From contig RPFO01000356.1 in NCBI GenBank assembly GCA_009746045.1, positions 52,528 to 116,527 on the forward strand: a stretch of 64,000 nucleotides of DNA, read 5' to 3'. This DNA comes from Mesostigma viride. Lineage: Eukaryota; Streptophyta; Mesostigmatophyceae; Mesostigmatales; Mesostigmataceae. Both the position numbers and the translations under genes were made by a program. The notes under the pieces are model-generated. The model made no database searches, was not told the origin of the DNA, and worked only from the letters and a program-made list of their open reading frames with translations. This document shows, in pieces, positions 27,090 to 58,840 of the stretch. The first letter of the stretch is position 1; every line of letters begins with the position of its first letter.

Positions 27090-27190
27090 TGGATTAATTA
27101 ATTTACTAATTAAAATCGTGCTAGCTCCCGTTTGGGAGCTAGTCATGGAGCATTAATCGCGACGGATGGATGGATGGATGGATGGATGGA
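27090..27190 (+). repeat. left host flank repeat, direct copy of 48292-48360
   Basis: The order is ATTA run, TCGTGCTAGCTCCCG hairpin, GGAGCATTA and (GGAT)n. It matches in direct orientation the sequence right of the virus (ATTA run, CTCGTGCTCCCGTTGGGGAG, GGAGCATTA, GATGGATGG). The left copy is more diverged and has extra bases in the hairpin. Confidence 0.65.
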
Positions 27191-27327
27191 TTAATTAATT
27201 AAGTAGCTTCCATCATCATTCCGTCATCATTCCGTCATCGCGACTAGGAGAAGTGCACCACCCTTATGCTGGCATCTGCCACCCCTATAGTGACCCTATA
27301 GTGACCGCGGCCTAGGATGGGTCTCAC

Positions 27328-27357
27328 CCTAAGCCCTAAACCCTAAAACCCTAAACC
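27328..27357 (+). repeat. telomere-like repeats inside the left TIR
   Basis: CCCTAAGCCCTAAACCCTAA then AACCCTAAACC: units of CCCTAAA with CCCTAAAA and CCCTAAG variants, on the strand orientation of a left chromosome end. The mirror copy is at 48131-48161. Confidence 0.85.
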
Positions 27358-27472
27358 ACTTGCAAAAACAGAAGTGCCCCCCTGCCACCACTGCTCACCA
27401 GGTTGCGACATTTAGGCTGGCATCTGTCACCACCCCGGCAGTTGTGATGGTGTGTTTGGGGTGTGACAAGGA

Positions 27473-27851
27473 TGGCGAAAAATTGTCCTTAGTTACTCTT
27501 AAGAGAAAGAACGGACAATTTTTCGCCACCCGCCACCCCTTGGCGCGGGTCATGGGAGGTGTTTTGTCAAGGTGTGAGAGTGATGGCGAAAAATTGTCCT
27601 TAGTTACTCTTAAGAGAAAGAACGGACAATTTTTCGCCACCCTGCCACCCCTTGGCGCGGGTCATAGGAGGTGTTTTGTCAAGGTGTGAGAGTGATGGCG
27701 AAAAATTGTCCTTAGTTACTCTTAAGAGAAAGAACGGACAATTTTTCGCCCCCCCCCCACTGGCCGGCGCTGAGGTGGCGTGGGTTGTTGGATGTGGCGA
27801 AAAATTGCACGTACTTACTCTTAAGAAAAGACCGCCCAATTTTTCGCCATG
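27473..27851 (+). repeat. palindromic 55-bp units in the left TIR
   Basis: Three copies of GGCGAAAAATTGTCC … GGACAATTTTTCGCC (15-bp inverted arms around TTAGTTACTCTTAAGAGAAA-type cores) start near 27474, 27583 and 27695, about 110 bp apart. A fourth, diverged copy (GCACG… core) starts near 27797. They are mirrored at 47637-48016. Hairpin-forming iterated units at both termini could be replication or packaging signals. Confidence 0.85.
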
Positions 27852-27897
27852 TCCTCGCAGGGTGAGGGAGCCGGCGAGGGCCGCGCGGCGGGGTGTG

Positions 27898-35132: not shown

Positions 35133-38100
35133 TTATAACGTCCAAGTGAGGGTCTTGTTAGTCGACACGGCCATTTTTCCAGCGCGCGACTTGCAAAACG
35201 CCGTAGAGAGTGCTATGTTTGTTGACGTGTCAGTGGTGATGCGAGGAATCCGCAATGCGATTTCAAACACCCCGTCATCCTCCTCGTATCCTGAAACAAC
35301 ATTCCAGTTGCTGCCAATTATAACGTTTACCGGCCAGACGGACAGGCCGCTAGCCGTTAAGCGATATGGGTTTGATATGTCGAGAATCGTTGGTGGGTTG
35401 TTATCAAATGTTAACCTGACAAGGATATTGGTCAACGCGGTCGGAAGAGTTAGTTCCGATTGTGTGGCCGGGTCGTGGAAAGACATCACGGCCACAGGGG
35501 CGCCGTGCCAAAATTGCGGAAGCGGGTAGTCGTATAAGTTATTATAAATAGTGACGGAACCTTTTTGCCACTTGGGCAATTAGGTCCGTCACTATTTATC
35601 CGGCGAAAACCACTCGCCGGCATCTATTCCGCGTTAAGTTCACGTGAACTTAACGCGGAATAGATGCCGGCGAGTGGTTTTCGCCGGATAAATAGTGACG
35701 GACCTAATTGCCCAAGTGGCAAAAAGGTTCCGTCACTATTTATAATAACTAAAACGTCGTAGTGTGGGGGCCGATATCTATCGTACCGCTGATGCCTACT
35801 GCAGTACCGAATCTCGCCTTAACGATATTCCAACCGGGCATATTTTCCCTTCTGGCACTTTCGTTTGGCCTTCTGGTATCAATTCCTTCCGGTATTCGGA
35901 AATACCCGTGTCACCACAGGGATTCGAACCCCCGACTTACGAGGTCTTAGTTATTATAAATAGTGACGGAACCTTTTTGCCACTTGGCAATTAGGTCCGT
36001 CACTATTTATCCGGCGAAAACCACTCGCCGGCATCTATTCCGCGTTAAGTTCACGTGAACGTGGCGCGGAATTGATGCCGGCGAGTGGTTTTCGCCGGAT
36101 AAATAGTGACGGACCTAATTGCCAAGTGGCAAAAAAAAGGTTCCGTCACTATTTATAATAACTAAGACCTCGTAAGTCGGGGGTTCGAATCCCTGTGGTG
36201 ACACGGGTATTTCCGAATACCGGAAGGAATTGATACCAGAAGGCCAAACGAAAGTGCCAGAAGGGAAAATATGCCCGGTTGGAATATCGTTAAGGCGAGA
36301 TTCGGTACTGCAGTAGGCATCAGCGGTACGATAGATATCGGCCCCCACACTACGACGTTTTAGTTATTATAAATAGTGACGGAACCTTTTTGCCACTTGG
36401 GCAATTAGGTCCGTCACTATTTATCCGGCGAAAACCACTCGCCGGCATCTATTCCGCGTTAAGTTCACGTGAACTTAACGCGGAATAGATGCCGGCGAGT
36501 GGTTTTCGCCGGATAAATAGTGACGGACCTAATTGCCCAAGTGGCAAAAAGGTTCCGTCACTATTTATAATAACTGTATATGGGCTGCCTCAGACCGACC
36601 AAAGAATCTGCTTCCAATATCGTGTGCGATATACGCCTAGTTTCTCGGACATCTTCATACAGGGCCACGTCCATCCCGTGATTGCCGCCAATTGACGACA
36701 GGCTTGAACCATAATAGTAGCTTAGGCTAGAAGCAAATAAAAGCGGGGTCGGGCCAGATACTGTTGGATCTAATACCTGGAACGTCACGGTCGCCAAATG
36801 GATCATACCAGTAACTGGAGGATCAACCAGTGAAATATGATCACAGGTTATGTCAACGTACGACGAGGATTTTGATATTGTCGTTGTAGAAAAACCGCCA
36901 GTCCACGCTTCTCCAACGACTACGCTGATAAGCAACGGATCATTGCTCAACTTGGTGTTTGAAAATCCAAGTCTTACATAAAACTTCCTTACCGACTGAC
37001 GAGCTGGTAGAATCCCATATATTTTGGCAGTATATTGGTTCATTTGCACGCCGTATTGAACATCGGGACACTTAACAACCGTGCGGATGACACTCTCATT
37101 CGTGAGTGTTAGCTCCTTAAACCAAGTATCCGCCACACCCGGTACGGGTTTTGTGACGCTATATTTGCCAAAAATGCTACAATTCCTCGACGAGGTGGAC
37201 CTGTGACGCAGCTCCAACACGTCTCCGACGGCTGTGTACGATCCGGATGGGTTGTTGGTTTTTAGAGAGTCGAACTCTATGTCTTGTAGGTCATCTTTGA
37301 TTGGCCAGACATACGCGCCGTGGTACTCTCCGCTCAAGTGGAAGACTGGTCGGAGGGGCATCGGAATGTACGGGTCAAGAATGTCTGTAGGAGTGGTTGT
37401 AAATATACCGGACGAGTTTGAGATTTTAGTCATGTCACTAAGTTCTTGAGGAGTTGTTTTGGATATATAACGCTCCACCTTCCCATCCGATTTTCTTCGA
37501 AATGCCACCCAGTAGCTGTTTTGTTGTCTCCATGATGAGTTTAACGTGTATCGAACCTTCGACTTCAGATTGTCAAACAGGTCGAGTGCATAGTCACTAT
37601 GGTGCAGATTGATACCCAGCATACCCCAATGCGTCGTAGCCGCATTTCTCCAATTCTGATGGGCATCTGTCGTGGCCGGGTGATATTTATTCGTCAAAGA
37701 CATAGTATTTTCTGCAAACGAGACGAAAGCATCGTTGCTGCCCAAATATAGCCGAAAACACAATAGAAATGGGCCGTCGATGAGCTGCTCTGAAAAAACA
37801 ACACATTTGCTTGGTGCCGGAGTGGCTGTTTTTACAAAAAAGAATTTTTCGGGAGACCCTTCAAAGTAGTATTTCGAAGCTTCTGCTTGCAGCGTGGTCA
37901 CGGAGTGGCGCGAGAATGATTCTAGAGAATGGAGCGTCGTAGCGGGGCCGTCTATCTCCACGGTCTCTCCTGACAGGTTTGGCGAGTCCTTTACGGTTAC
38001 GATCCTGTATCTGAGTTCTACATCATCGCCTTCGGATGGATTTTGAAACGTCGTTGTCTTCAACGTCCCATCCAAGGCCCCTTGAGATACTCCGTTCGCC

Positions 38101-39488
38101 AACAGATGAAAACCGGTGAGAGGAGGCAACGACTTTCCCCACCCCACATCATGGTCCGCGTAGACGCCGTTGATCGCGATTTTTACAGGATTTAGATATG
38201 AAATGTAGGAACTTGGTGTCCGGATGCCGGAGTGCAGTTGGCTCATTTTTGAAACGCATACCATCACCCCTCCTTTGTGGGTGGTGTAGGAGGTGAGGGT
38301 CGAGTCGTTGTAGACGTCTATCTCGTAGTTCATATACTTGTTACTATCTGCCGCGACTGGCGCGGTGATTACGGCGTCTTCCCCGCGCAGTCCCCCGTTT
38401 TGCGAGAGGGAGACTCCGCCGATGGTCGGAGTGGTCGGCGTGAGCTGGGTGGAATTCATGTACCACCTGATGGGGAGTTTGCGTTGGTATGCGAAGGGGG
38501 TCGTCATCTTTATGCCCTGTTTGAGGGTCGTTCCCTCTACGACCTCCCAATTAGCGGTGGTTGGATTGGTGCTCCAGTAGAGTGCGTTCACAGGGTCAAT
38601 CGGACCCATTCGCCAGTCCGTCAGTGGCGAGTAAGTACGCGTGATGGTGAAGGATCTCCCAGTTAGTGGAAGGCGGCGGTTGTCGTCGCGAATCGTGGCG
38701 AAAGACAACAACTCCACGCGGAGAGGGAGGCCGTTAAATCGAGATCCGCCGAGACCATAGAAAGAGTCGGAAAAGTACGGATATCCTACCTCTCCGTCCA
38801 CAACGCTCTCCCCCGTGCGCGCCTGGGTCGTGTGGTAGTCGCGATAGGTAAACTTACAGATTCCACTCGCGTCGCCATTCGTAACGTTGTAGGGCAGCTG
38901 GACTCGCACATCCTGGTCATTGATGACGTTGAACGCGTTTTGGTGCGACACGGTCGTCCCGTCTTCGAGATGGAGGACGAAATCCCCGTTCAAGTTAGCT
39001 ATCGACGTTTTGCCTACCCCGTGTTGGTCAAAAAGGTAGTCCAATTGCGCGCGGGTCAGGACTCTGCCACCAGGGTCTAGCAACGTATCAGGGCTAAAGT
39101 CGAAGACGTGGTACTGGGTCGCTCCCACTTTCGCCGTAAGGTAAGGTTCATTTAGAGTGAGATCGTCGACTAAAGTAGTCCCTGATTTAAAATAGGAATA
39201 CCCATTCACGACGAGACTGTAAGCAAGTTCCGATGGGTCGCTTGCGGTCTCGTCGTCGTAATTGTCTCCGAGTCGCACATTTGTCGGCTGGCTCGGGTAG
39301 AAAATTTTGAATCCGTCGACAACGAGTGACTCATCGAATGGATGTGAAATGCCAAGAAGTAACGTCACGCTAGCTTGAAGCCCATCTATGTCTGTTTCGA
39401 TGTTAGAAACACGCTCCTCCATTTCAGGGTCGAGCGTTAACCCGGTGGCGAGATTGGTCGGTCTGCTCAATGTTGTTAGAACGACCAT
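35133..39488 (-). pseudogene. PLV fibre-like virion protein, interrupted by a foldback element
   Basis: One gene is split into 39488-36576 and 35531-35133 by the element at 35537-36575 plus one copy of the 5-bp GTATA duplication. Frame and codon phase match exactly across the break; without the insert the product is 1,103 aa. The N-terminus has a short coiled coil (EERVSNIETDIDGLQASVTL), typical of trimeric fibres. The rest is beta-rich, Thr/Ser/Tyr-rich and Cys-poor without a domain I can name. The last 133 codons past the break (…PLPQFWHGAPVAVMSFHD…) end in KTLTWTL. With the insert in place, translation stops five codons into the element. It is the largest virion gene and diverges from the replication arm. 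I infer a tail/fibre or receptor-binding function. Confidence 0.75.
35537..36575. mobile_element. foldback element FB1 (1,039 bp) in the fibre-like gene
   Basis: Five blocks: palindrome 35537-35750 (214 bp), spacer 35751-35948 (198), palindrome 35949-36163 (215), inverted spacer 36164-36361 (198), palindrome 36362-36575 (214). Ends are AGTTATTATAAATAGTGACG and its inverse. The target duplication is GTATA (35532-35536, 36576-36580). Each palindrome folds around GTTCACGTGAAC (outer copies). Each spacer contains the exact B-box GGTTCGAATCC (36182-36192, and inverted near 35921-35931) followed by CCTGTGGTGACA, like a tRNA T arm and acceptor strand. No protein gene. The middle palindrome carries small differences, so it is not a mere assembly copy. 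Confidence 0.92.
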
Positions 39489-39512
39489 TTATTATCTACC
39501 TAGAATATAAAC
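39489..39512. promoter_or_regulatory. divergent promoter region between the PLV arms
   Basis: Only 24 bp separate the fibre-like gene (minus) and the coiled-coil gene (plus). It is AT-rich, with ATTATCTAC and GAATATAAAC. Both promoters must lie here or extend into the coding regions. No motif shared with other PLV upstream regions was confirmed. Confidence 0.4.
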
Positions 39513-40040
39513 ATGGCCTCTGAGGCTTCAGAGACCCCAACGAGCTACCAAGACGAAACCTTCGCCGAGACGCGGGAAGAGCAGGTTGACCTGGTCAAGA
39601 CAATTCGAAAGGGACAACCGCTGAATGATGAACAGAAAAAAGCCCTTCGCGACAAAATGAGGGTTTACCAGCAACGCGCAAAAGCCGAGAGGGAGAAGAG
39701 ACGAAACGAAGAAAAGGAGGCAGAGATAACGAAACGAAAGGTCCTTGCAAAGGAATTGGAGATTCAGCGGCAAAGGCTAGTCGAACTCGAGCTGCAAGAA
39801 GCCCGCAACAAATCGCGGATTGAACGCCTTCTCGCTGAAGATTCCGTCGCCTCAACCCCCGCCGACACGCCAAAACCAAGACGGGGTCGAAAGCCCAAGG
39901 AGACAGAGCCGGACTCTCCGCCACCCCCGATCAAGACCCGACAGCTCCCACCTCCACCACCGCCACCTGTCGCGATGACGCCATACGAGATGCGCATGGC
40001 CGCCATCCGCGCGTCTCTCCTTGCTAGTCTGGACGATTAA
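39513..40040 (+). CDS. PLV coiled-coil protein with AT-hook and polyproline
   Basis: 175 aa. Residues ~45-105 form a long charged coiled coil (RAKAEREKRRNEEKEAEITK…RQRLVELELQEARNKSRIER). Then follow PKPRRGRKPKE, an AT-hook-like DNA-binding motif, a run of prolines (RQLPPPPPPP) and a short helical end (MTPYEMRMAAIRASLLASL). First gene of the plus-strand arm, directly before the packaging ATPase. I do not recognise a family; a scaffold or DNA-organising function is a guess. Confidence 0.7.
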   Translation: MASEASETPTSYQDETFAETREEQVDLVKTIRKGQPLNDEQKKALRDKMRVYQQRAKAEREKRRNEEKEAEITKRKVLAKELEIQRQRLVELELQEARNKSRIERLLAEDSVASTPADTPKPRRGRKPKETEPDSPPPPIKTRQLPPPPPPPVAMTPYEMRMAAIRASLLASLDD

Positions 40041-40052
40041 AATGTCTTCAGA

Positions 40053-40937
40053 ATGATAATGGCTATCATCGAAGAGCGACGAATTCATTCACTTGAGAAC
40101 AAAGACATAAAGCAACGATACGCCCCACAGCGTCCTGCTCCACCGAATATGCCGAGTCTTCATTTCATCGCAAACTTCTGCGGAGCTCGACGGTCTGGGA
40201 AAACTACATCGGCAGTCAACATGGCGAAGGCTTACTTTGCTAACAACTCATTCGACAAGCTGTACCTCATTTCAGGGAGTGCCCACACGGAGCCGAAATA
40301 CAAGGAGCTCCCGGAACCAGCTATGACGATGGAAGTCTACTCTAACCTGGCATTCGATGGGATGATAGATCATATAAAGTCTGACCTCCACGAATACGAG
40401 AGGTACAAGGACGATCTCAAGGTCTGGGAAACGTTTAAACGCGAATACGTGGACGGGAATAAAAACGCAGAACTCATGGACCTCTCCATGTACCTACGCC
40501 TTGATGCAATGAACTGGGATAAACCTGCGACAAGGTTCGAGCACGGTCCTCCTTCGTCGCTCATTCTGATAGACGACATGCAAGGCAGTGCCCTCTATCA
40601 GAGCTCTAGCAAAAACGCTGTTGCGGCTTTCGCGTTCAAACACAGACACTTCCTCACGAGCATGATTTTCCTGACACAGGCGTACACGAGCGGTGGCGTA
40701 CCACGAGCAGTGCGAGCGAATATATCGTTTCTTGCGCTGTTCAGAACGAAGGACCATCGAGCCGCGCGACAGATCGCGGAAGAGAGCGCGGGGGCTGTGG
40801 CGCCGGACGAGTTTCTCGCGCTATGGGACCACGCCGTCAAGGACGATCCTCACGACTTCTTCGCTGTCGACTTCGACCAGCGCGACCCGAAAAAAATGTT
40901 TCGTCGAAACTTCAATACATTTCTCTCGATAAAATAA
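40053..40937 (+). CDS. PLV genome-packaging ATPase (A32/FtsK-HerA-like)
   Basis: 294 aa. Walker A is GARRSGKT (residues 44-51) just after a short strand (LHFIANFC). Walker B is SSLILIDDM at about residues 168-176. The spacing and the small size match the A32-like packaging ATPases of PLVs, virophages and large DNA viruses, which pump the genome into the capsid. The end (MFRRNFNTFLSIK) is a typical short tail. Twelve bases separate it from the previous stop. A second Met (residue 3) is an alternative start. Confidence 0.88.
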   Translation: MIMAIIEERRIHSLENKDIKQRYAPQRPAPPNMPSLHFIANFCGARRSGKTTSAVNMAKAYFANNSFDKLYLISGSAHTEPKYKELPEPAMTMEVYSNLAFDGMIDHIKSDLHEYERYKDDLKVWETFKREYVDGNKNAELMDLSMYLRLDAMNWDKPATRFEHGPPSSLILIDDMQGSALYQSSSKNAVAAFAFKHRHFLTSMIFLTQAYTSGGVPRAVRANISFLALFRTKDHRAARQIAEESAGAVAPDEFLALWDHAVKDDPHDFFAVDFDQRDPKKMFRRNFNTFLSIK

Positions 40938-40959
40938 TTTTCTCTGAACATGATATACT

Positions 40960-41454
40960 ATGGATATTCCGTCCATCAAACGATACGCAGGCGCCGAGAA
41001 GGAGTACGTGTTGGACACCCAAGCACTCCTCCGATATTGTTCGGGTTCTCGACTGGGGCAGAAAACTCTAGAACGTGTCGTCAGGATCCTTCAAGAAGCA
41101 GGCCACAACGACACGATTCCGTCCACCTGTCACGACATGAGCCCCGAAATCCGATTGGCCATCCTCGCCTTGGTGGGCGATCGCAGGCGTCCACGTGGGC
41201 GCTCACCCTCCAAAACGGAAAAACGACACGAACCGAAACGGCCTCGAGGGCGCCCAAGGATCCACCCCGTAGGGTATAAAAAGCCTCGAGCCAAAAAATT
41301 GTCTCATGTTCAGTCATCAGATGACGGTGACCGTAGAGGAGCGTCGCGAGCAATGGCGACGGGCCCAGGCGAAGAGGCGAGCAATCGCCCGCGACCAGAC
41401 GAACTGCATCTCGGCGAAAAGCAAGGTCAAGAAGGGCGTCTGGAATCCCAGTGA
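40960..41454 (+). CDS. PLV AT-hook DNA-binding protein
   Basis: 164 aa. The N-terminal ~75 residues look globular and helical (TQALLRYCSGSRLGQKTLER, EIRLAILALVGD). The next part is a basic linker with a good AT-hook core (KRPRGRPRIHPV, about residues 92-103). The last ~50 residues overlap the recombinase start (41306) in another frame and are low-complexity. DNA binding is supported by the AT-hook; the target and role are unknown. Confidence 0.65.
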   Translation: MDIPSIKRYAGAEKEYVLDTQALLRYCSGSRLGQKTLERVVRILQEAGHNDTIPSTCHDMSPEIRLAILALVGDRRRPRGRSPSKTEKRHEPKRPRGRPRIHPVGYKKPRAKKLSHVQSSDDGDRRGASRAMATGPGEEASNRPRPDELHLGEKQGQEGRLESQ

Positions 41455-42589
41455 CCGATGGATCGCAAATAACCCCGAGTGCGCTGAAAAAATCGGCTTG
41501 CAGGCGACCTCTCCACCCTCGCCGGAGCCACCGCACCACGAGGAACCGCCTGCGCGACCTACTGATGGACGATACTGGACCTTCGACGAGGCCGTCGCCG
41601 CAGCGGATGCCCGGCCAGAGCATCACGAGCCTGGCAGGCCCTCGAGAGAGCGCGGGGCGACGCGCAAAACCGCGAAGGGGTACATCGGCAGGCTCCGAGT
41701 TCTCCTCGACAGGCTGGGGTGCTCGCAGGACGAATCAGTCGACTGCCTCGCCGACACCGCCCGTGTCCTGCGCGTCGTCCACGAAACCTCGGAACCCAAA
41801 CGCAAGCTCGCACACTCGAAAGAGGATGCGTGGAGGGAGAACGAGAAGAACTTGCTCGGAGTGATAAACGGGGTGAATCGAATGATGCCACCTGAAAAGA
41901 GGCTCCCACGCGACGTGACGGACGCGTACGCTGCTCGAGTCAATGAGCTGAAGGTCGGCGACCTCGACAGGAAATTCGACAGGGCCGAGAGCAAGCCACT
42001 GAGGTATACGTACGAGCAGCTCCAGCGGATCGCCGCCGCCGAGTACAAAAAGGACCCTACGTCTGACGCCGCTTTGATGGGTCTTATTTACCTGTCCGGC
42101 GAGAAACTGCCACCAACCAGGTACGACCACGACAAAATGCGCGTTGTCAGTTCTATCAGCGAGCTCGAGCCACACGAGAACGGATACATTCCGAGCGAGC
42201 GCCGCATGATAATTCAACGTTTTAAGACGGCAGAGACGTACGGCACGTACGACTACCAAATTCCAGACGGGTACAAGAAGCTGATTAACGCGTTGCAGGC
42301 TCGAGCTCATCAGAAGTACGTGTTCGAGGACCCAAAAAATCCAGGCGAATACATGAAGCACGAGTATTATTCTGCGAAGTACAACCGCATCTACCACGGC
42401 ATTGATGCAACGAGGCAGGCGTACATCACCCGTTTCCTGAAGGGCGCTTCGTGGAAAAAGCGAAAATGGGCTGGTGACTTGATGGGGCACGACGTACTTA
42501 CAGGAGCCGTTTACGAGCGGCAGGCGGGGGGCCCCTCTCCTCAGGGCGGCGAGACTGGCGGACGTCGGCTGAGGCCGAGGAAAAAGTAG
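41306..42589 (+). CDS. PLV tyrosine recombinase (integrase)
   Basis: 427 aa. The catalytic set of tyrosine recombinases can be placed: first Arg in PPTRYDH (R272), Lys in QRFKTAETYG (about K307), second Arg in DATRQAYIT (about R370), His in MGHD (about H395) and the nucleophile Tyr in AVYER (about Y403). The middle third (residues ~125-250) would be the helical core-binding domain. This family carries out site-specific strand exchange and is the integrase of many PLVs and Ngaro/Crypton-like elements. The first ~110 residues are basic and Pro-rich without a domain; the true start may be at MTVTVEERRE (residue 6). It probably inserted this element into the host. Confidence 0.85.
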   Translation: MFSHQMTVTVEERREQWRRAQAKRRAIARDQTNCISAKSKVKKGVWNPSDRWIANNPECAEKIGLQATSPPSPEPPHHEEPPARPTDGRYWTFDEAVAAADARPEHHEPGRPSRERGATRKTAKGYIGRLRVLLDRLGCSQDESVDCLADTARVLRVVHETSEPKRKLAHSKEDAWRENEKNLLGVINGVNRMMPPEKRLPRDVTDAYAARVNELKVGDLDRKFDRAESKPLRYTYEQLQRIAAAEYKKDPTSDAALMGLIYLSGEKLPPTRYDHDKMRVVSSISELEPHENGYIPSERRMIIQRFKTAETYGTYDYQIPDGYKKLINALQARAHQKYVFEDPKNPGEYMKHEYYSAKYNRIYHGIDATRQAYITRFLKGASWKKRKWAGDLMGHDVLTGAVYERQAGGPSPQGGETGGRRLRPRKK

Positions 42590-42787
42590 ACAGTTTTCCC
42601 GTGGGAAATTTTCATGAATGTCGAAAATGATATCCTAAACCGCATGCATTATACAGGAAATAAAAAAGTTCCATGGGACCATTTTTCTTGAGGGTCGAGG
42701 TTCGAGGGTTTATGTGGTTTTTAAACGAACTGAAATTTTTTAATCGAAACTTTTTTTTTCTAAGCATACGGTATACAACCTTCCAGA
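42590..42787. other. PLV intergenic spacer before the primase-helicase
   Basis: 198 bp, the longest gap between plus-strand PLV genes. It contains a T-run (42752-42762) and TAAGCATACGGTATACAACC just before the start. It may hold the promoter or terminator; no element is certain. Confidence 0.4.
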
Positions 42788-45700
42788 ATGGTCTCGAACT
42801 TCAACCTGCATGACGACACGGTCGACCGACACGACGTAACCGACAAGCCGACACGATTCGATTCCTCGTGGGAGATCTCCCACGGGAATAAAGGCGGACT
42901 CTCCCACGACAATCCACACTCTTGCGCTCACACAACCTCTAAGATGTCGACCGCCGCGGAATTTGTTCCTCTGTGGTTCGCGTCGAAAGATACGCCTTTC
43001 TTTGCTCGGACGCCAGGGGTGATGTACTCGTACGAAGAGGAAAAACCCCAAGACGCTTCGGAGGCGTATGGTCGCTCTCGTGGGATGAAGTACATCATGG
43101 CGCTGAACACGTACAAAAAAACGAACATGTATGCCGCTTTCGGGTGCAGGGAGGACTTGATCAAGACCCATGCGGAGTTATCAACAAGCGATCCGCATTT
43201 GCTAGAAATTCTATCCCCCGACGTGAGCGTCGTCCCATATTTCGATTTTGACTGGGAAACGGAAGAACCCATCGACTACCAGCTGGAGAAGTACGCAAAA
43301 GCGGCCATATCCATGTTCTTCAACGACGTGTACGAGATAAATGTCGAGGAAGAGCGAGATATGCGGGTCCTTATTGGCCATCGCGTCAGGAGCGGCATTT
43401 TCAAGAACTCTGTTCATGTCACGGTGCCGACGATCTACATCCCGACAATGGAGGATCGTGTCAAGATGGGAGAGCTTTTTCAGTCGTTTCTTCTTCAGTG
43501 CGCGATGGATTTATCTTCAGGATATCAGTCTGAGGTGTGCCAGAGACTCGTCAAGTCCCAGCACTCGAAAGAGGATTGGGAGGACATGCACGCGAACGGG
43601 AACCCGATTGTGGAGAAAACAACTGGCGTTTGGGCGCCTAAACACGACATCAAGTTTTGCTACGATAGAATGATCTATTCGAGGTACCGGGCCTTTCGCA
43701 TGATAGGGATGAAGAAGCGCGGAGACAGCGGCGAGGACGCGTACCTCCGCCCAGTCCCAGGGGGTAGTTCCGACGTCGGCGAATATTTGGTGACTGTCTT
43801 CAACGAAGAGGGACTGACCCGGCTCCCCCATGTCGATGATGCGGAACTATCCGAAACGAGCCATACAGTGTTTCGAGGGTATGGGAAGACTATCCCACCA
43901 CCTCGGGGCCTGGACATCTCGCCATCCATCGAAGCAATGAAAAAGTTTTCGCCTGGATGCAAGTATATGCGCACAACCTGTAAAGAATCCGATCGAGGTG
44001 TCGCAACGTTCGTCAAGTACTCCGTCGACTCTGTGGATCCGTTATGCAGGATCTGCCTCAAGATACACGACAACAACGGGCCTTATAACCTGCTACTCCC
44101 TAATGGCGCTGTACAGTACAGATGCCACCAGGACTCACAGCACCGATTCATCGAGATCTCCCCGCCCGTGATGAAGCTCGCGGACTCGGACAAAGTGCCG
44201 TTCACTCACACGTACTCGTCCGAGAAAATCAGGCCTTTCAGCTGGGATGCGCTATTTAGAGGCCCGCACAAGAGCACCATCCTCGTCCAGTCCAACTGCG
44301 GGACAGGTAAATCTGAGAGGATTCGTGAACTCGTCAACGAGGCGGTGAGGAGGGATCCAGGTATCCGCGTGTGCTGCATGGTGGCTAACATCAGCCTGTC
44401 CAAGGAGGAGGATCGCAACTACAAGTCTCTTGGCGAGCGCGGGAGGACGATTGCATGGGAGGACAACGCGTTCCATATCTTGTCCAATGACCCGAATTTC
44501 CGTCACTACCTCAGCGGTCCGAAGGGAATGATGTCTGATGACAGGGTGCTGGTCGTTCTTAACAGCATCTTGCGCGTCACAGACCAACCGTTCGATCTCC
44601 TCATCCTAGACGAAATATATAACACCCTCACCGCGATTTCGCAGGGCCACATGAAATACAAGCGCGAGGTGTTGAGGAAGTTCATCAGGCTCATTGAGAT
44701 GTCCAAGGTCGTGATTGCGCTAGACGCTACCGTTACTCGAAAGGTATACGAGTTCATAGCGGCCTATCGCGCGGCGGATACTATGGAGGTGGATTGCAAC
44801 ACCTTCCGGCGCCCTACCAACAGGACTCTGCGATGGGTGGATGTGACATCAGAAAAGAACTGGCGAAAGGTCTGCGTGGACAGGTTTGTTACTGAGTGTG
44901 AGAGGAGGATAGAGGCCGGAGAGAGGATTTTCTGCCCAATGTCTGGCAAAAAAGAGGCCGCCATGGCGTATGAGGCACTCAAACCCTTCATCGACAAGCG
45001 CAAGAACGGGCGTCTCTACACTAGTCTGACGAGCAAGGAGGATCTGGAGTTTGGCGCGAATGCTGCGTGGGCTGACTTGGACTTTTTGATCTTCAGCCCC
45101 ACGATCACGGTTGGAGTCAGCTACACGGAGCACACGTTCGACAGCATGGTGGGACTCTTCATCAACGGGGACCACTACGCGAGCTACACGACAACCCTCC
45201 AGCAAATTTTCAGGGTGCGCCACTTAGTCAAGGGAGAGATGGTCATCAGTTAGGTTAATATTGTGCGGAAACCTTTTTGCCACTTGGGCTACTCAGGTTC
45301 CGCACAATATTACCGGCGATAACCACTCGCCGGACACTCAAGTTCACGACGTCGTGAACTTGAGTGTCCGGCGAGTGGTTATCGCCGGTAATATTGTGCG
45401 GAACCTGAGTAGCCCAAGTGGCAAAAAGGTTTCCGCACAATATTAACCTAACTAAAACCTAGCCTCTTGGGGCGAGGACGAATCACTAGGCTCGGAACAC
45501 CCGTATGCATGAATATGATCGAATATAAGCATCTCGTTGGTGCAAATATCGATATGAATATGATCGAATATGAGCATCTCCTTGGTGCGCATATGATTAG
45601 AGCCGGGTGCCAAATCGGAACGAATTATTCCCCCAAATAATCCGCTTCCGAGTGGATTCGAACCTGCGCCCCGCAAGGATCCAGGTCTTAGTTAGGTTAA

Positions 45701-47470
45701 TATTGTGCGGAAACCTTTTTGCCACTTGGGCTACTCAGGTTCCGCACAATATTACCGGCGATAACCACTCGCCGGACACTCAAGTTCACGACGTCGTGAA
45801 CTTGAGTGTCCGGCGAGTGGTTATCGCCGGTAATATTGTGCGGAACCTGAGTAGCCCAAGTGGCAAAAAGGTTTCCGCACAATATTAACCTAACTAAGAC
45901 CTGGATCCTTGCGGGGCGCAGGTTCGAATCCACTCGGAAGCGGATTATTTGGGGGAATAATTCGTTCCGATTTGGCACCCGGCTCTAATCATATGCGCAC
46001 CAAGGAGATGCTCATATTCGATCATATTCATATCGATATTTGCACCAACGAGATGCTTATATTCGATCATATTCATGCATACGGGTGTTCCGAGCCTAGT
46101 GATTCGTCCTCGCCCCAAGAGGCTAGGTTTTAGTTAGGTTAATATTGTGCGGAAACCTTTTTGCCACTTGGGCTACTCAGGTTCCGCACAATATTACCGG
46201 CGATAACCACTCGCCGGACACTCAAGTTCACGACGTCGTGAACTTGAGTGTCCGGCGAGTGGTTATCGCCGGTAATATTGTGCGGAACCTGAGTAGCCCA
46301 AGTGGCAAAAAGGTTTCCGCACAATATTAACCTAACTTCATCTTCTATCGAGACACGACTTCGCTTCTTGACAGGCCTCCAACGGACTACGGTACGATCG
46401 TCGAGAACATGATCGCGGGGGACACTGCGCTCATCCAGCTGCTGTTCGACAACGCCGACGTAGTCTGCGACTGGAGCGCGGACAAGTCGCGTATCTATGA
46501 CAGAAACTGTCCCAAATTCCGCCTCTTCTGCCGGAACCAGCAAGATCTCGCGGTGTCGAGGTCCCATTACAAGGGAAATCTCATCAAGATACTGACGGAG
46601 GACTACGGCGTGGAGGTGTCGGCAGTGGAGGAGTTGGGGGACATCGACGCCCCCCAGCTTCCGGTACTAGAAGATCCAGACAAGGACAGGGAGGTGGTGC
46701 TTCTGAGCGAGGAGGAGTACAAGGATCTAGAGGGGAGAATCGGCGGCACGGTTCCACTTTCACCGTACGAAATGCGTCTGAAGGCGGTGTACGAATTGAC
46801 TCATCGGTTGTACGAGATTCCGTATGATCTCATCGACGACGAGCTCCCTCAAATTCTGGACAAGGAGATGGGGAGGAAGGCGTACGTTGGCGTTCGGCAA
46901 TATTCGAAGTTGACGGGACTAGGAACCAAGGAGCATTTTAGAGACAATCTGTTGATTCTGCAGAAGTCAGAGTCCTTGTTTGATTTGAAGGCGTATTCTC
47001 GTTTTGGACTAGCACAGTCTCTGGCCATTACGCTCAAGCTACTAGAAGGGACGCCTATCATCGACTTCATCACGACGGCTGATCCGTCCAATCTCACAAT
47101 GAAGTTGACGCGCGACGAGACGATTGCACTAGGGAATAAAATTGATAGCGAAATTGCCGACAAGGCCTGGTTCATGCGCTCAACATTTGGATACCGGCGG
47201 AGGGCAGGCGAGGCTGGTAGTTTGTCTTTTGCGCAATGCAGCGGTCTCATCAACAGCTTGTTGAACCCGACTCTAGGAATTTATGCCAAGGGGGCGAAGG
47301 GCAATAGCCGTGGCGGTGGTTGCTTGGAAATTTCGAAGGCGGACATGCATGCGTTTCTTGATAGGTATAAACCCTCGTGGTGGGGCGATGAGAAGGATTA
47401 TTCGATCACGTCGTTGTCTGGCCTGTCGATGGATGAAATCGCTCCTTTCCTGCAGGGAGCGGATAAGTAG
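42788..47470 (+). pseudogene. PLV primase-helicase, interrupted by a foldback element
   Basis: One gene is split into 42788-45247 and 46343-47470 by the element at 45248-46337 plus one TCATC copy. Phase and frame match; without the insert it is 1,195 aa. N-terminal archaeo-eukaryotic primase: catalytic VPYFDFDWE (about residues 147-155), KNSVHVTV (about 205), DIKFCYDRMIYSRYRAFR (about 285). A Cys/His cluster follows (CKYMRTTC, CRIC…C..D..H). Then a superfamily 2-type helicase like the herpesvirus origin-binding group: Walker A CGTGKS (about 504), LLILDEIY (about 607), VVIALDATV, and motif VI QQIFRVRHL (about 804-812). The insertion lies only ~8 residues past motif VI. The last 375 residues have no named domain (…PYEMRLKAVYELTHRLYEIP…). 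The start may be at the internal MSTAAEF (42944). As it stands the protein stops at the second codon of the insert. Confidence 0.82.
45248..46337. mobile_element. foldback element FB2 (1,090 bp) in the primase-helicase gene
   Basis: Five blocks: palindrome 45248-45453 (206 bp), spacer 45454-45689 (236), palindrome 45690-45895 (206), inverted spacer 45896-46131 (236), palindrome 46132-46337 (206). Ends are AGTTAGGTTAATATTGTGCG and its inverse. The target duplication is TCATC (45243-45247, 46338-46342). The palindromes fold around GTTCACGACGTCGTGAAC and appear identical. GGTTCGAATCC, the exact pol III B-box, is at 45921-45931 and inverted at 45655-45665. TAGCCCAAGTGG, a full match to the A-box pattern TRGYNNARNNG, lies in the palindrome ~70 bp upstream. 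It shares CTTTTTGCCACTTGGGC and ACCACTCGCCGG with FB1. No protein gene; the open frames across the palindromes are artefacts of the symmetry. Confidence 0.92.
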
Positions 47471-47588: not shown

Positions 47589-48298
47589 CACACCCCGCCG
47601 CGCGGCCCTCGCCGGCTCCCTCACCCTGCGAGGACATGGCGAAAAATTGGGCGGTCTTTTCTTAAGAGTAAGTACGTGCAATTTTTCGCCACATCCAACA
47701 ACCCACGCCACCTCAGCGCCGGCCAGTGGGGGGGGTGGCAAAAAATTGTCCGTTCTTTCTCTTAAGAGTAACTAAGGACAATTTTTCGCCATCACTCTCA
47801 CACCTTGACAAAACACCTCCTATGACCCGCGCCAAGGGGTGGCAGGGTGGCGAAAAATTGTCCGTTCTTTCTCTTAAGAGTAACTAAGGACAATTTTTCG
47901 CCATCACTCTCACACCTTGACAAAACACCTCCCATGACCCGCGCCAAGGGGTGGCGGGTGGCGAAAAATTGTCCGTTCTTTCTCTTAAGAGTAACTAAGG
48001 ACAATTTTTCGCCATCCTTGTCACACCCCAAACACACCATCACACCTGCCGGGGTGGTGACAGATGCCAGCCTAAATGTCATAACCTGGTGAGCAGTGGT
48101 GGCAGGGTGGCACTTCTGTTTTTGCAAGTGGTTTAGGGTTTTAGGGTTTAGGGCTTAGGGTGAGACCCATCCTAGGCCGCGGTCACTATAGGGTCACTAT
48201 AGGGGTGGCAGATGCCAGCATAAGGGTGGTGCACTTCTCCTAGTCGCGATGACGGAATGATGACGGAATGATGATGGAAGCTACTTAATTAATTAATT
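47589..48298 (-). repeat. right terminal inverted repeat of the PLV
   Basis: Mirror copy of 27191-27897 with a few substitutions (for example TTATGACATTT against TTGCGACATTT in the left arm). Such near-identity suggests recent integration or repair between the arms. Confidence 0.93.
48131..48161 (-). repeat. telomere-like repeats inside the right TIR
   Basis: GGTTTAGGGTTTTAGGGTTT then AGGGCTTAGGG, the inverted copy of 27328-27357. Confidence 0.85.
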
Positions 48299-52986: not shown

Positions 52987-53013
52987 ATAGAACTGGTTGT
53001 CTCCTTGATAGAA
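52987..53013 (+). mobile_element. 15-bp SINE-tail insertion with an empty site in copies B and C
   Basis: CTGGTTGTCTCCTTG (52993-53007) lies between two ATAGAA copies. Array copies B (57090 region) and C (61113 region) read TTCATAGAAGGTGTGAC with one ATAGAA and no insert. This pair shows both the event and its ancestral state. Confidence 0.78.
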
Positions 53014-53461
53014 GGTGTGACAATAGAAGGTGTTTTATATTTCTGCATCAAGCAAGTCAAAAGTAATCTCCACTGGCTTACAACCTGAATCTTGCTTTGC
53101 TGGGTCTGCTGTGTTCGTGTCTCATTGTGCAGGCTATCCCCTTGGTTGACCAACCAGGTGATTTGTGGTGCCAGCGGGGCCATATTGGTTTTCTTCTCAT
53201 TTTCCATCCGTCGCAACGGACCGCATGGGCGGGCGGGAGGGCAGAGAGGGCAGGGCAGGGCAGGCCAGGCGAGGCAGGAAAGGCTGCAAGGGTATGCAGC
53301 ACAGGTAGGCTGGCAGGCAAGGGTCATGGGGCATGAGCCATGGGGCTTGAGCCACGAGCCTTGCGGCATGAGGTTTGGGGATGGGGCAAACAGGAGGGCA
53401 GCCAGCCAGCCACATCCACATGATTAGGGGCCAGACAGCAATCAGGGGCACCGCGGGCCCA

Positions 53462-54840
53462 CTTATGCATGCCAGGCACCCCACCAACCCACGCACGCAT
53501 GCCAGCCACCCCCATGCCCACGCACACAAACCCACTTATGCATGCCAGCCACCCCCCACACCCACGTACGCATGCCAGCCACCCCCCACACCCACGCACG
53601 CATGGCAGCCACCCCACGAACCCAGGCACGCATGCCAGCCCCCCCTCAAGCCACGCATGCATGTCAGCCCCCCACCACACCCACGCATGCATGCCACTCC
53701 CCCCCACACCCACGCACGCATGCCAGCCACCCCCCACACCCACGCACGCCCCCCGCCACACCCACGCACGCATGCCAGCCCCCCCCTCATGTACGCATGC
53801 ATGCCAGCCACCCCACAAACCCACGCTTGGATGCCAGCCCCCCCACATGCATGCATGCATGCCAGCCCCCCCCACATCCACGCACGCATGGCAGCCGCCC
53901 GCCCAACCCACGCACGCATGCCAGCCAACCCCCACATGCACGCATGCTTGCCAGCCACCCCACATGCAAACAAGCCCCCCCCACATGCATGCTTGCATTC
54001 CAGCCACCCCACAAACCCATGCACGCATGCCAGCCACCCCCACACCCACGCACGCATGTCAGCCACCCCACGAGCCCACGCATGCATGCCAGCCACCCCC
54101 ACAAACCCACGCATGCATTCCAGCCACCCCCCACATGCACGTGCATGCCAGCCACCCCCCACACCCACGTACGCATGCCAGCCACCCCCCACACCCACGC
54201 ACGCATGGCAGCCCACCCCACGAACCCAGGCACGCATGCCAGCCCCCCCTAAACCCACGCACGCATGGCAGCCCACCCCCAAACCCAGGCACGCATGCCA
54301 GCCAACCCCACACCCACGCACTTATGTAAGCCCCCCCCCACACACGCATGCATGCCAGCCCCCCCACAAACCCACACACGCGTGCCAGCCCCCCCCACAT
54401 GCACGCATGCATGCCAGCCACCCCATAAACCCATGCATGCATGCCAGCCACCCCCGTCACCAACGTACGCATGCCGTCCCCCCCCCACACACGCATGCAT
54501 GCCAGCCTGCCCCGCCCCACATGCAACCATGGCAGCTCCCTTCCACACCCACGCATGCATGCTAGCCACCCCACAAACCCATGCACGCATGCCACCCCCC
54601 CACAAACCCACGCATGCATGCCAGCCACCCCCCACATGCATGTGCATGCCAGCCACCCCCCACACCCACGTACGCATGCCAGCCGTCCCCCCGCATGCAT
54701 GGCAGCTGCCCACCACACCCACGCAGGTATGGCATCCCGCCCCGCCCCACATGCATGCATGGCAGCTCCCCTCCACACCCACGCTCGAATCCCAGCCCCC
54801 CCCACGCATGCATGGTAGCTCCCCACCACACCCACAAATG
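53462..54840 (+). repeat. minisatellite of CCCACGCACGCATGCCAGCC units, array copy A
   Basis: Degenerate 27-30 bp units of ACCCACGCACGCATGCCAGCC followed by ACCCC(C)CAC fill about 1.4 kb. Variants include CATGCATGCATGC and GGCAGCC. Long frames in all six directions (HACQPPP, MRAWVWG) come from the repeat and are not genes. Confidence 0.93.
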
Positions 54841-57543
54841 GACAGGGCTGGCCTGCGACGCCCCACGGTCGCGCGCAAGGGCACTGTCGAGTCATGTACA
54901 AAACATTGTCTACATGAAGTCATAGTGGGCATGACCGATGGTGCATGTGTTTACAAAGGATTGCCACTCAATGAATATTGATGAATGATGAACATTTGAG
55001 TTTGCATGGAAGTGTTTGGTCGTTATGGCTGCCGCTAAAGCGGTACCCACATATGCATGGCATAGCTGCATTGTGAGTTTCAGTTGTTAGGAAGTAATGA
55101 GTAAGGAAATACTTGCATGCAATGAACGGCGACGTCTCACAATGTACGGTACTATTCGGACTGGGTTTATGTACTAGTAGTATGACGCGTGCTGGACGTG
55201 CCCGTGAGGGACGGAGCGTGGGATCGACGGTGCGGCGGGCCGGCGCGAGCGCGCGCGATGGGAAGCCCCCAAAGGAAGGCCGCCGAGCGTTCGCCCCCGG
55301 CGTAGGGGCCGGGCCGGTCGGCGGGCTCAACCCGGCGGGTCGAAGCTTTCGGCGGGGGCCTCAGGGCCCCTGGTGGCGTAGTGCGTCCGAAAAAGTGGGG
55401 GGCCTTGGCCCCCCCACTAGTCCCCTTCTAGTGACTACGATTAACCCCAACGCAAAAGTTTGGCGAACCGTGAGGCCCGAAAAGTGGCCCGTACGAAAAC
55501 CGCGAGCGCAGGGCGGCCGATAGTCAGGGCGATCCGGGGATCCGCGGTGGCGCCCAATCGGAGCAGTTGCCCGAAAAGTGGCAAACTGGGGAGATCGAGT
55601 GTCCACCTTTCCTGAACGGGCCTGAAACGGCCGTTACGTCCAGATCCGGTTCAGCACTTTTGCGGGCAGGTGGGAGGCCAGCCAATGGCCGCGGCCAGAT
55701 AAAAATACGGAACCCGGCACGATGTCGGCTTGTTGCGAGGCCGTCAAACTCTTCGCACGAAGCATCTCTAACCAAACAAGCCGGCGTAGGTTAACGCTTC
55801 TGTGACGCGGAAGTACAACAACTCGGAGTATAGAACCCGCCGTCCTCGAGTTTCGTAGCGTTCAGTGAGACAAGTCGACGGAACGTCCAGAAAATGTTTT
55901 GAAACCGTAAGACGTTGGCCGTTATGGCCGTTTTCCTGTCCGCATTTCGTTCAGAAACCGTTTCACTGAGTTGTTCCGCATCACTTTTCGATTCAGACCG
56001 AAGGTATAGTCTGAACATGATGTGACTGATATTTATTCTAAAATTATACGCAAATGTTTAGTTGGAGGAGTGGAGAGTAGTATGATGCTTGCTGGACGAA
56101 TTTCTGCCACATTCCGTACTTACCAAGCTGGAAACAAAGGACTTGGGAGGATTTTCAAGTGGGTAGTACGCGGTGCTGGACCGCCTGGACGCGCCCAAGC
56201 AATCGAACGTGCATAAACCAGGACTGCGAGGGGGCGAGGGGGCGACATGCTGCGACAGCACTTAATTTCCTGCTGGCTGGGGATGGCGTCCAACGCTGCC
56301 TGGAAAATTGGGGATGGACAATGCGTGGGCATTGCTTTTATAGCGTTCAATGTTCCATTTCGATGCGTACCTTTGAATTGTTTCTGATCTGGCTGGCCGT
56401 CGGTGGGCAGTCACGTGCGTGGGAGAGGTTCGGGGCGCTATGGCCTGCTGCGATAGCTAGCGACCTGGAAATGGAATGTCGTTGTAGATTTAGGTATTAT
56501 GTTATCGTGCTTCTTTGCTTGACGTATTGGGTGCCTAGTGAAATCAGTTTGCTGTTCGTGGAAGGCGTGGGTGTGGCCGACGAGTTTCTGTTGTCGTCAC
56601 ACAATATTGGAATGAACGCTGGATTTGTTGCCACGGGACGTACGCTGGCGATGCCGATGGTGAGTCGTTTGTTTCGATGGCCGGGCTAGTGCCTGCCCTC
56701 TTTCTGATGCGTTTCCTCGGTTGCGTTGTTTCCATTTGGCCGAATTCACGTAGTCGCAGCGAAGACATAGCGTAGCAAGGGTCTGCGTTTCATTTTCTTA
56801 GCCGTGCAGGACGCCATCTTCATGGTCCTTCGGGTTTCCCGTGTCAACGTCCGTTGCCAGAGGATCTGTGATGATTTTTTTCTGGAATATACTGGGCGGT
56901 GAAAGCCCCTGTGGATGCTTGCCTGGTCATGAGTTTAGGGCGTCATTTACTGCTGTACTCGCTGATATTCATGGTGCTTACTGCGTAAGATAATCCGCCT
57001 TGCTTCGCGCGTGGATTTTCACTGGGCTGAAGAGCGCGTCTGGTAACATGTTTACGTGGTGTATAAGGTGATCAATCAACCATTTGTTCATAGAAGGTGT
57101 GACCGTAGAAGGTGTTTTATATTTCTTCATCAAGCAAGTCAAAAGTAATCTCCACTGGCTTACAACCTGAATCTTGCTTTGCTGGGTCTGCTGTGTTCCT
57201 GTCTCATTGTGCAGGCTATCCCCTTGGTTGACCAACCAGGTGATTTGTGGTGCCAGCGGGGCCATATTGGTTTTCTTCTCATTTTCCATCCGTGGCAACG
57301 GACCGCATGGGCGGGCGGGAGGGCAGAGAGGGCAGGGCAGGGCAGGCCAGGCGAGGCAGGAAAGGCTGCAAGGGTATGCAGCACAGGTAGGCTGGCAGGC
57401 AAGGGCCATGGGGCATGAGACATGGCGCTTGAGCTACGAGCCTTGCGGCATGGGGTTTGGGGATGGGGAAAACAGGAGGGCAGGCAGCCAGCCACATCCA
57501 CATGATTAGGGGCCAGACAGCAATCAGGGGCACCGCGGGCCCA

Positions 57544-58840
57544 CTTATGCATGCCAGGCACCCCACCAACCCACGCACGCATGCCAGCCACCCCCATGCC
57601 CACGCACGCATGCCAGCCCCCCCCCCCCCACACAAACCCACTTATGCATGCCAGCCACCCCCCACACCCACGTACGCATGCCAGCCACCCCCCACACCCA
57701 CGCACGCATGGCAGCCACCCCACGAACCCAGGCACGCATGCCAGCCCCCCCTCAAGCCACGCATGCATGGCAGCCCACCACCACACCCACGCATGCATGC
57801 CACCCCCCCCACACCCACGCACGCATGCCAGCCACCCCCCATACCCACGTACGCCCCCCCCACACCCACGCACGCATGCCAGCCCCCCCCTCATGCACGC
57901 ATGCATGCCAGCCACCCCACAAACCCACGCATGGATGCCAGCCCCCCCACATGCATGCATGCTTGCCAGCCACCCCACATGCAAACAAGCCCCCCCCACA
58001 TGCATGCTTGCATTCCAGCCACCCCCACACCCACGCACGCATGCCAGCCACCCCACGAGCCCACGCATGCATGCCAGCCACCCCCCACATGCACGCATGG
58101 ATGCCAGCCACCCGCCACATGCACATGCATGCCAGCCACCCCCCACACCCACGTACGCATGCCAGCCACCCCCCACACCCACGCACGCATGGCAGCCCAC
58201 CCCACGAACCCAGGCACGCATGCCAGCCCCCCCCTAAACCCACGCACGCATGGCAGCCCACCCCCAAACCCAGGCACGCATGCCAGCCACCCCCATACCC
58301 ACGCACTTATGTCAGCCCCCCCCACACACACGCATGCATGCCAGCCCCCCCCAAACCCACACACGCGTGCCAGCCCCCCCCCACATGCACGCATGCATGC
58401 CAGCCACCCCACAAACCCACTTATGCATGCCAGCCACCCCCGTCACCAACGTACGCATGCCGTCCCCCCCCACACCCACGCATGCATGCCAGCCTGCCCC
58501 GCCCCACATGCGTCCATGGCAGCTCCCCCCACACCCACGCATGCATGCTAGCCACCCCACAAACCCATGCACGCATGCCAGCCACCCCCAGACCCACGCA
58601 CGCATGCCACCCCCCCACAAACCCACGCATGCATGCCAGCCACCCCCCACATGCACGCATGCATGACAGCCACCCCCCACATGCACGTGCATGCCAGCCA
58701 CCCCCCACACCCACATACGCATGCCAGCCACCCCCCACACCCACGCACGCATGGCAGCCACCCCCCACAGCCACGCACGCATGCCAGCCCCCCCCTCAAG
58801 CCACGCATGCATGGCAGCTCCCCACCACACCCACGAATGG
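57544..58840 (+). repeat. same minisatellite, array copy B
   Basis: Same unit type as 53462-54840 with a different number and order of variants, so the minisatellite evolves faster than the rest of the unit. Confidence 0.93.

Follow-up and report, generated by a model that had tools for sequence, protein, structure and literature searches.

Alternating palindromic arrays of miniature inverted-repeat transposable elements (MITEs) are already in print: according to the sections of PMC10664404 that deal with such repeats, the pithovirus repeats M1 and M2 form (M1-M2)n-M1 arrays, and rice MITE multimers are cited there as well. Here we analyse two elements, FB1 (35537-36575) and FB2 (45248-46337), located in a 64,000-nucleotide stretch of Mesostigma viride (Streptophyta) DNA, contig RPFO01000356.1 of assembly GCA_009746045.1, which is called the window below and in whose numbering the coordinates are given. 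Both elements are composed of a palindrome, a spacer, a second palindrome, the inverted spacer and a third palindrome (P-S-P-S'-P) and have AGTTA...TAACT ends. In its behaviour, the P-S-P-S'-P family matches a type of non-autonomous transposon that is already known.

One of the closest resemblances is to the pithovirus arrays, which, as the same sections report, alternate palindromic units, often start and end with the first unit and are more similar among copies of the same region than to copies elsewhere, no linked transposon having been found for them (PMC10664404). However, both pithovirus units are palindromic and MITE-like, their putative target duplication is TA and they reside in virus genomes, whereas the family studied here has an AGTTA-ended P, varied 5-bp duplications and an S inverted about the middle P, and belongs to a host genome. 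The rice MITEs, by the account given in that paper, also exist and move as multimers, while the form met most often here is an inverted dimer representing one long near-perfect palindrome. The foldback-type elements Galileo, Tetris and Tm1 share the very long inverted repeats and the structural dynamism; compared with the descriptions of them available to us, the present elements differ in having three palindromes, two inverted spacers, 5-bp duplications and no coding core seen.

Polintons and polinton-like viruses (PLVs) with a retroviral-type integrase make target duplications of 5-6 bp and possess terminal inverted repeats, and tyrosine recombinases make no target duplications, as stated in the relevant parts of PMC12220804. 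The 5-bp duplications and inverted ends found here resemble the former, but the elements are about 1 kb long, carry no recognisable genes and have ends unlike those of the PLV in the window. The lack of a staggered-cut duplication that characterises Crypton-like and PLV tyrosine recombinases does not agree with 5-bp duplications and single-copy empty sites. The viral tyrosine recombinase, which the earlier sequence-only reading of this locus had named as a candidate enzyme, is thus unlikely. Several features of MITEs are present: a fixed 5-bp duplication, AGTTA...TAACT ends with the whole P inverted, small size and, judging from the lengths of open reading frames (ORFs), no transposase gene. 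No earlier description of a P-S-P-S'-P family was found in the literature searched (open-licence PMC papers), in line with the earlier statement that no named family is known to have such a plan; an M. viride genome paper (PMC6947507), in the parts accessible to us, mentions MITE-Hunter and describes no such element.

Genome-Wide Distribution and Transposition

FB1 and FB2 probably belong to a large family of non-autonomous DNA transposons that lack recognisable genes and have been active recently. In the host assembly (440 Mb, 2,243 contigs), FB1 as a query gave 86 matches (the best 40 of 296 candidates scored) and FB2 gave 92 (the best 40 of 685 candidates scored), and FB2 copies identical over 1,090 bp occur in at least seven places on both strands, the window's own copy included. 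The P core CCTTTTTGCCACTTGG has 727 forward and 728 reverse matches in the assembly (reversed control 0 + 0). The right spacer junction TAACTAAGACC-N12-40-GGTTCGAANCC has 278 + 294 matches (control 0), the 100 that were listed comprising several sequence types, and the left junction TAACTRAAACCTRGCCYC, with one mismatch allowed, has 769 + 762 (1,531; reversed control 0). One common type of the left junction, once followed, gave an additional family, FB4. At least five sequence families were read in total (FB1, FB2, FB3, FB4 and E), of which some are strongly divergent from each other in P and S. Recurrent across the families are the AGTTA ends, the AAAC or AARAC start of the spacer and GGTTCGA at its right end; family E was retrieved with a pattern containing the GGTTCGA motif, and FB3 and FB4 were retrieved without it. 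The copies are spread over many host contigs. In the IMG/VR viral collections, CCTTTTTGCCACTTGG has one match in each of 10 stretches, presumably by chance, and a longer core pattern has 0 matches in the viral collections.

A search of the host genome for AGTTA palindrome triples, which the sequence-only reading had proposed, yields many copies, each with its own duplication. An exact 5-bp duplication flanks every one of the 47 distinct insertions whose two ends could be located (loci fetched from the assembly are designated by L numbers). Since the location of ends demanded AGTTA and TAACT, decayed copies are excluded from this count: L032, L033, L034, L056, L059, L068, L069, L070 (two pieces) and L071 have missing, decayed or cut ends, and L017-L021, L028, L046, L048 and L049 repeat sites already counted. 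The duplications vary in sequence, and two of the 47 are CCCCC within C-rich flanks and are little informative. Beyond the 47, duplications were recognised by eye in L080 (TACAT) and L076 (GTTTA), and L075 has no exact 5-bp duplication.

The elements among the 47 range from 212 bp to about 1.5 kb. Their duplicated forms include solo P (L052), P-S-P (L060, L062 and L067+L040) and dimers, and further duplicated forms are trimers (L027, L029, L061 and L063), two P's separated by 27 bp (L053) and a hybrid (L073). In L029 (1516-1584), L035 and L060, the terminal P is shortened to about 69 bp with its AGTTA/TAACT ends kept, and the 5-bp duplications are retained. The triple palindrome, formerly regarded as the plan of the family, is indeed the form met most often in a sample biased by its queries (full dimers or end motifs) and by junction layouts taken from the first 100 places listed, but solo P, P-S-P and longer arrays are present too and also have 5-bp duplications.

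Uninterrupted paralogous sites, which span the junction and contain a single copy of the target, were found for seven of the 37 insertions tested among the DNA already retrieved. The empty site of L013 is in L024 (240 of 240 bp, 98.8%), that of L015 in L014 (240 of 240 bp, 99.2%), that of L026 in L047 (197 bp, 97.5%), that of L063 in L050 (94%) and that of L053 in the window itself (830-1071, 91.7%), and those of L022 and L044 lie in adjoining tandem repeats. Spanning matches of L065 and L052 (tandem repeats) and of L030, L051, L054 and L055 (weak, 71-84%) are excluded from the seven. Because the duplications extend across all forms and empty sites exist, P may be considered as two back-to-back transposon ends and the P-bounded arrays as mobile units. 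The mobile family anticipated from the window alone is therefore upheld by the genome-wide matches and the duplications. An assembly artefact, the objection raised in advance against the middle palindrome and second spacer, is unlikely because many copies share the plan in different flanks with their own target duplications.

A weak target preference is seen at corresponding positions on the two sides: of the 47 sites, 21 have G three bases ahead of the duplication and 27 have C three bases beyond it, with binomial tails of 0.007 (G) and 0.0004 (C) on the composition of these sites for positions chosen post hoc; the both-strand target table is symmetric by construction. In L032, one S arm has a 5-bp TACTG insertion, which duplicates the adjacent bases like an excision footprint.

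The enzyme was presumed to act in trans, which agrees with the absence of a transposase gene inside the elements, although the enzyme itself was not found. It is probably of the DDE/integrase type. The search for an association with an AGTTA-ended transposase, also proposed earlier, revealed none among the loci fetched. A hAT-like element at C1513 (L074), in which an E-type P is located about 170 bp from the ORF, was considered as a partner and rejected, as its gene is apparently nested: elsewhere in the genome, copies begin to match L074 only at base 317 and lack P, and a CAGGGTGG stretch, typical of hAT ends, follows at about position 326. The ORF, which we take to be a hAT transposase from its motifs, has no Pfam family and no PDB match, and a neighbouring ORF has one weak unrelated Pfam match (E 0.3). 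A second protein, hAT-like by reading (G000, e.g. C2:4980615-4981508), occurs in 41 places of equal score, 38 of them with an open frame of 657 aa; apparently, this family has undergone a recent burst, and no AGTTA-ended P is present in two 1.1-kb pieces, one on either side of the element. In L079 (C2), a D-type spacer of about 2 kb has an apparent inserted repeat (about 215-1935) with ends rich in GTTATACG and ORFs of 170 aa or less.

Structure of the Palindromes and Spacers

The five-block plan, the block sizes, the AGTTA/TAACT ends and the duplications given by the sequence-only reading proved to be exact on re-computation (Table 1). In a direct test, FB2 is identical to its own reverse complement across 1,090 bp and hence is a perfect palindrome, and the inverted-repeat search presents it as two 545-nt arms with gap 0 and 100% complementarity. 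FB1 is near-palindromic, with two 442-nt arms flanking the middle P, the halves of which differ in length by 3 bases and in sequence by a few substitutions; one G of the outer P's is missing from both halves of the middle P. The core TTTTTGCCACTTGG has 12 exact matches in the window, every one inside FB1 or FB2, and one match with two mismatches elsewhere in the window, compared with a mean of 0.72 matches in shuffles with up to 2 mismatches. Neither element was thought to encode a protein, and this is consistent with ORF lengths: among ORFs of at least 80 aa lying wholly within the elements, FB2 has two (93 aa each) and FB1 none.

Table 1. Positions of the FB1 and FB2 blocks and of their target-site duplications in the window
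Feature	Positions	Strand	Description
FB1 left target-site duplication	35532..35536	.	GTATA
FB1 left P	35537..35750	.	214 bp perfect palindrome, AGTTA...TAACT
FB1 spacer S	35751..35948	+	198 bp; AAAAC end at left P, GGTCTT end at middle P
FB1 middle P	35949..36163	.	215 bp; two half types, alpha and beta
FB1 inverted spacer S'	36164..36361	-	198 bp; same sequence as S
B-box-like motif GGTTCGAATCC	36182..36192	+	within S' beside FB1 middle P; mirror copy in S
FB1 right P	36362..36575	.	214 bp
FB1 right target-site duplication	36576..36580	.	GTATA
FB2 left target-site duplication	45243..45247	.	TCATC
FB2 left P	45248..45453	.	206 bp perfect palindrome
FB2 spacer S	45454..45689	+	236 bp
FB2 middle P	45690..45895	.	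206 bp; centre of 1,090-bp perfect palindrome
FB2 inverted spacer S'	45896..46131	-	236 bp
FB2 right P	46132..46337	.	206 bp
FB2 right target-site duplication	46338..46342	.	TCATC

The P of FB1 and FB2 (about 206-215 bp) consists of two halves, AGTTA...GTTCAC and GTGAAC...TAACT. Each half folds into two hairpins, the first with a 15-bp stem and a conserved loop and the second formed by CCGGCGA..TCGCCGG; pairing in the first stem is near-complete in FB1 and FB2 despite their different sequence and is less regular in FB3. The innermost bases of the P core are variable, mostly symmetrically (CACGACGTCGTG, CACACCGGTGTG, CACGTG and CACGTACGTG), with few asymmetric exceptions. The spacer, as had not been noticed before, is an imperfect inverted repeat. 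Its ends are alike in inverted orientation, a likeness reached by 0 of 500 shuffles for S2, S3 and SE and by 15 of 500 for S1 (shuffling by pairs of bases), and the whole-spacer version of the test is weaker, with 11 of 200 shuffles reaching the score for S1, 9 of 200 for S2, 0 for S3 and 1 for SE. The half-P hairpins, the P halves and the spacer-end tests thus reveal nested inverted repeats at four scales (half-P, P, S and the whole element), of which the S level is the least sure.

Array Forms and Similarity of the Arms

Of the right-end junctions, the first 100 listed include 60 that make 30 neighbour pairs at distances up to 900 bp, all 30 right-to-right with the neighbours facing away from a common middle P, and 40 that are unpaired. 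The first 100 left-end junctions, which overlap with the former list in elements, comprise 31 right-to-right neighbours, one left-to-left neighbour, which sits in a longer array, four direct and 34 unpaired; the right spacer end is shared at the join by 31 of the 32 inverted neighbours. Off-standard spacings are met in these lists (e.g. 157, 163 and 331; 232, 338, 700 and 800), and trimers with direct-oriented neighbouring spacers are present.

Spacer arms are more alike within an element than expected from shuffling. The mean number of differences is 2.0 versus 4.69 in FB1 (19 elements, including L057, whose two counted arms are direct) and 0.36 versus 4.04 in FB2 (14 elements), and in either case 0 of 5,000 shuffles is as low. 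Individual S variants are confined to a single arm in some elements and shared by every arm in others: 147T>G affects a single arm in L016, both arms in L022 and each of the three in L027, and 171A>G affects a single arm in L045 and both arms in L050. A 9-bp deletion of S was observed in both arms of L031 and in one arm of L036.

Typing of the outer P's (up to 3 mismatches) covered 12 two-arm FB1 elements with both outer P's typed. In 10 of them, the outer P's are mixed alpha/beta with alpha outward at both ends and therefore represent mirror images; L054, with mixed mirror-image outer P's, has the sole symmetric middle P of the 12, and in the window's FB1 the outer P's are alpha/alpha at both ends. 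In the hybrid L073, the GTTCAC core of the middle P is the point at which an FB1 half meets an FB2 half; GTCTT is present in both flanks, but this duplication is less certain since GTCTT is the S end next to P and the left flank is possibly a spacer remnant. The 27 bp between the two P's of L053 consist of 15 bp of the spacer start and 12 bp resembling the left flank. Together, these data suggest that the units are joined and copied at the P centres and that the arrays move whole. The copying may be coupled to transposition or proceed within the chromosome.

Proposed Mechanism and Its Alternatives

The scheme which we regard as probable comprises P-bounded arrays mobilised in trans, dimers originating by inverted duplication at P, and homogenised arms. 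In this scheme, P would consist of two transposon ends in back-to-back fusion, and S would be a non-coding spacer with two ends that resemble an ancient inverted repeat. A trans-acting enzyme would cleave at AGTTA/TAACT and insert the element with a 5-bp staggered cut, leaving the duplications that we observe, and any array starting and ending with P would transpose as a unit, as seen for solo P, P-S-P, the dimer, the trimer and the hybrid. The dimer would arise when P-S-P is duplicated in inverted orientation around the P located at the GTTCGA-bearing S end, the P hairpin offering the simplest route by snap-back copying or template switching, and would then be amplified by transposition. The observed likeness of the arms may be maintained by templated correction or conversion.

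Several data weigh against this scheme. No autonomous partner with AGTTA ends was found among the listed matches and the fetched host loci. Arm differences remain in five of 14 FB2 and 11 of 19 FB1 elements, so homogenisation would have to be slow or linked to the duplication events. Eleven of the 12 typed FB1 elements have an asymmetric middle P, a result unexpected from simple snap-back alone, and in one of the 12 (L016) an outer P has the reverse half order and no mirror image is formed.

Perhaps the dimers are the product of only one or a few chance events, and their arms are equalised in situ in the way that chromosomal palindromes convert. This possibility, which we find doubtful though worth retaining, would account for the one-arm and all-arm states of 147T>G and 171A>G, while the hybrid, trimer and P-S-P forms suggest a repeated rebuilding of arrays. 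At the other extreme, inverted duplication via a hairpin could be a programmed part of the normal life cycle, in which one-sided snap-back at the P beside the GTTCGA-bearing end turns one arm into two; we think this unlikely. If it were true, each new dimer would be born as a perfect palindrome, and repeats of this process at smaller scales would have built the palindromes inside palindromes.

It is improbable, in our opinion, that the elements pass through an extrachromosomal, hairpin-ended replicon, with P as a fused hairpin telomere and the dimer rebuilt from one arm in each cycle by a rolling-hairpin-like snap-back form before integration. Since solo P and P-S-P carry 5-bp duplications, ordinary transposition of arrays suffices, and the asymmetric middle P's, the persisting arm differences and the direct-spacer trimers are difficult to reconcile with such a replicon, even though it would agree with the perfect 1,090-bp palindromes, the arm likeness, the near-constant spacer end at the middle, the joining of L073 at the P centre and the mostly symmetric variation of that centre.

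The Polinton-Like Virus and Other Neighbours

Both FB1 and FB2 are located inside a PLV-like stretch (27190-48297) with terminal repeats of about 700 bp (27190-27897 and 47589-48297), and the AG...CT termini of the elements are like those of Polintons. One can suggest that they are PLV satellites moved by a viral integrase, with which the presence of two copies in one PLV and the compatibility of the 5-bp duplications with the 5-6 bp given for PLVs in the parts of PMC12220804 cited above would agree. We consider this quite improbable, because the copies are spread over many host contigs and only one fetched locus beyond the window's own L011 and L038 has a PLV-like stretch in its flanks, namely L043 (76 aa, 32% identity), many loci being represented with only about 100 bp of flanks. 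Moreover, the outer ends of the PLV terminal repeats are without AGTTA, and no integrase family was matched among the subset of PLV ORFs tested. A tie to the virus, such as the viral candidate enzyme of the sequence-only reading would imply, is consequently not sustained.

Within the terminal repeats of the PLV, runs of CCCTAAA like those of telomeres are present (at about 27331-27360), along with several imperfect palindromes GGCGAAAAATTG...CAATTTTTCGCC. The PLV helicase frame (Herpes_ori_bp-type, 42788-47470) is interrupted by FB2: compared with the homologue P0002, its left piece matches up to residue 771 and its right piece resumes at 771. Three helicase homologues were found, two of them with Mesostigma viride names, and the best has 61% identity. 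A 975-aa ORF (36561-39488, minus strand), which has no Pfam or PHROG match, terminates 15 nt within FB1 and may be truncated by it. In the region 53000-64000, the ORF and composition tables indicate an apparent tandem repeat of about 4 kb in about three copies with a strong GC skew.

Spacer Ends and a Possible tRNA-Like Motif

The GGTTCGA motif occurs at the right S end in all five families compared (E having been found via the motif) and at none of the left ends, which might indicate a short interspersed nuclear element (SINE)-like unit transcribed by RNA polymerase III, with GGTTCGAATCC beside the middle P as the B box and GCCCAAGTGG in P as the A box. Such an origin seems very unlikely to us: on inspection, the A-box match fails in FB3 and FB4, and the right end of FB4 also has AAAAC, so that a terminator at one end only fails too. 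By eye, we took the right spacer ends to resemble the 3' half of a transfer RNA (tRNA). The Rfam tRNA model RF00005 gave no support, with at best 17.4 bits against a threshold of 29 (L070, L072 and L073) and nothing at E up to 1 in window positions 35401-46500, so a tRNA head recognisable by the model, as in tRNA-derived SINEs, is missing. SINEs mobilised by long interspersed nuclear elements are also unlike elements with fixed DNA ends and 5-bp duplications. Rfam microRNA matches, all under their family thresholds, were dismissed as hairpin look-alikes. A retrozyme or long-terminal-repeat reading, prompted by the 5-bp duplication and the tRNA-like spacer ends, was rejected by inspection because the tRNA-like stretch is next to P in the tRNA's own sense and cannot pair as a primer site.

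Significance

Long perfect palindromes are usually unstable. The host genome nonetheless carries at least seven identical 1,090-bp palindromes, together with numerous near-perfect palindromes, inserted at well-defined sites. Genes of resident viruses are among the targets, as illustrated by FB2 in the PLV helicase frame. The family makes testable the tolerance and copying of perfect palindromes by eukaryotes, the formation of MITE multimers and the coupling between inverted duplication and transposition.

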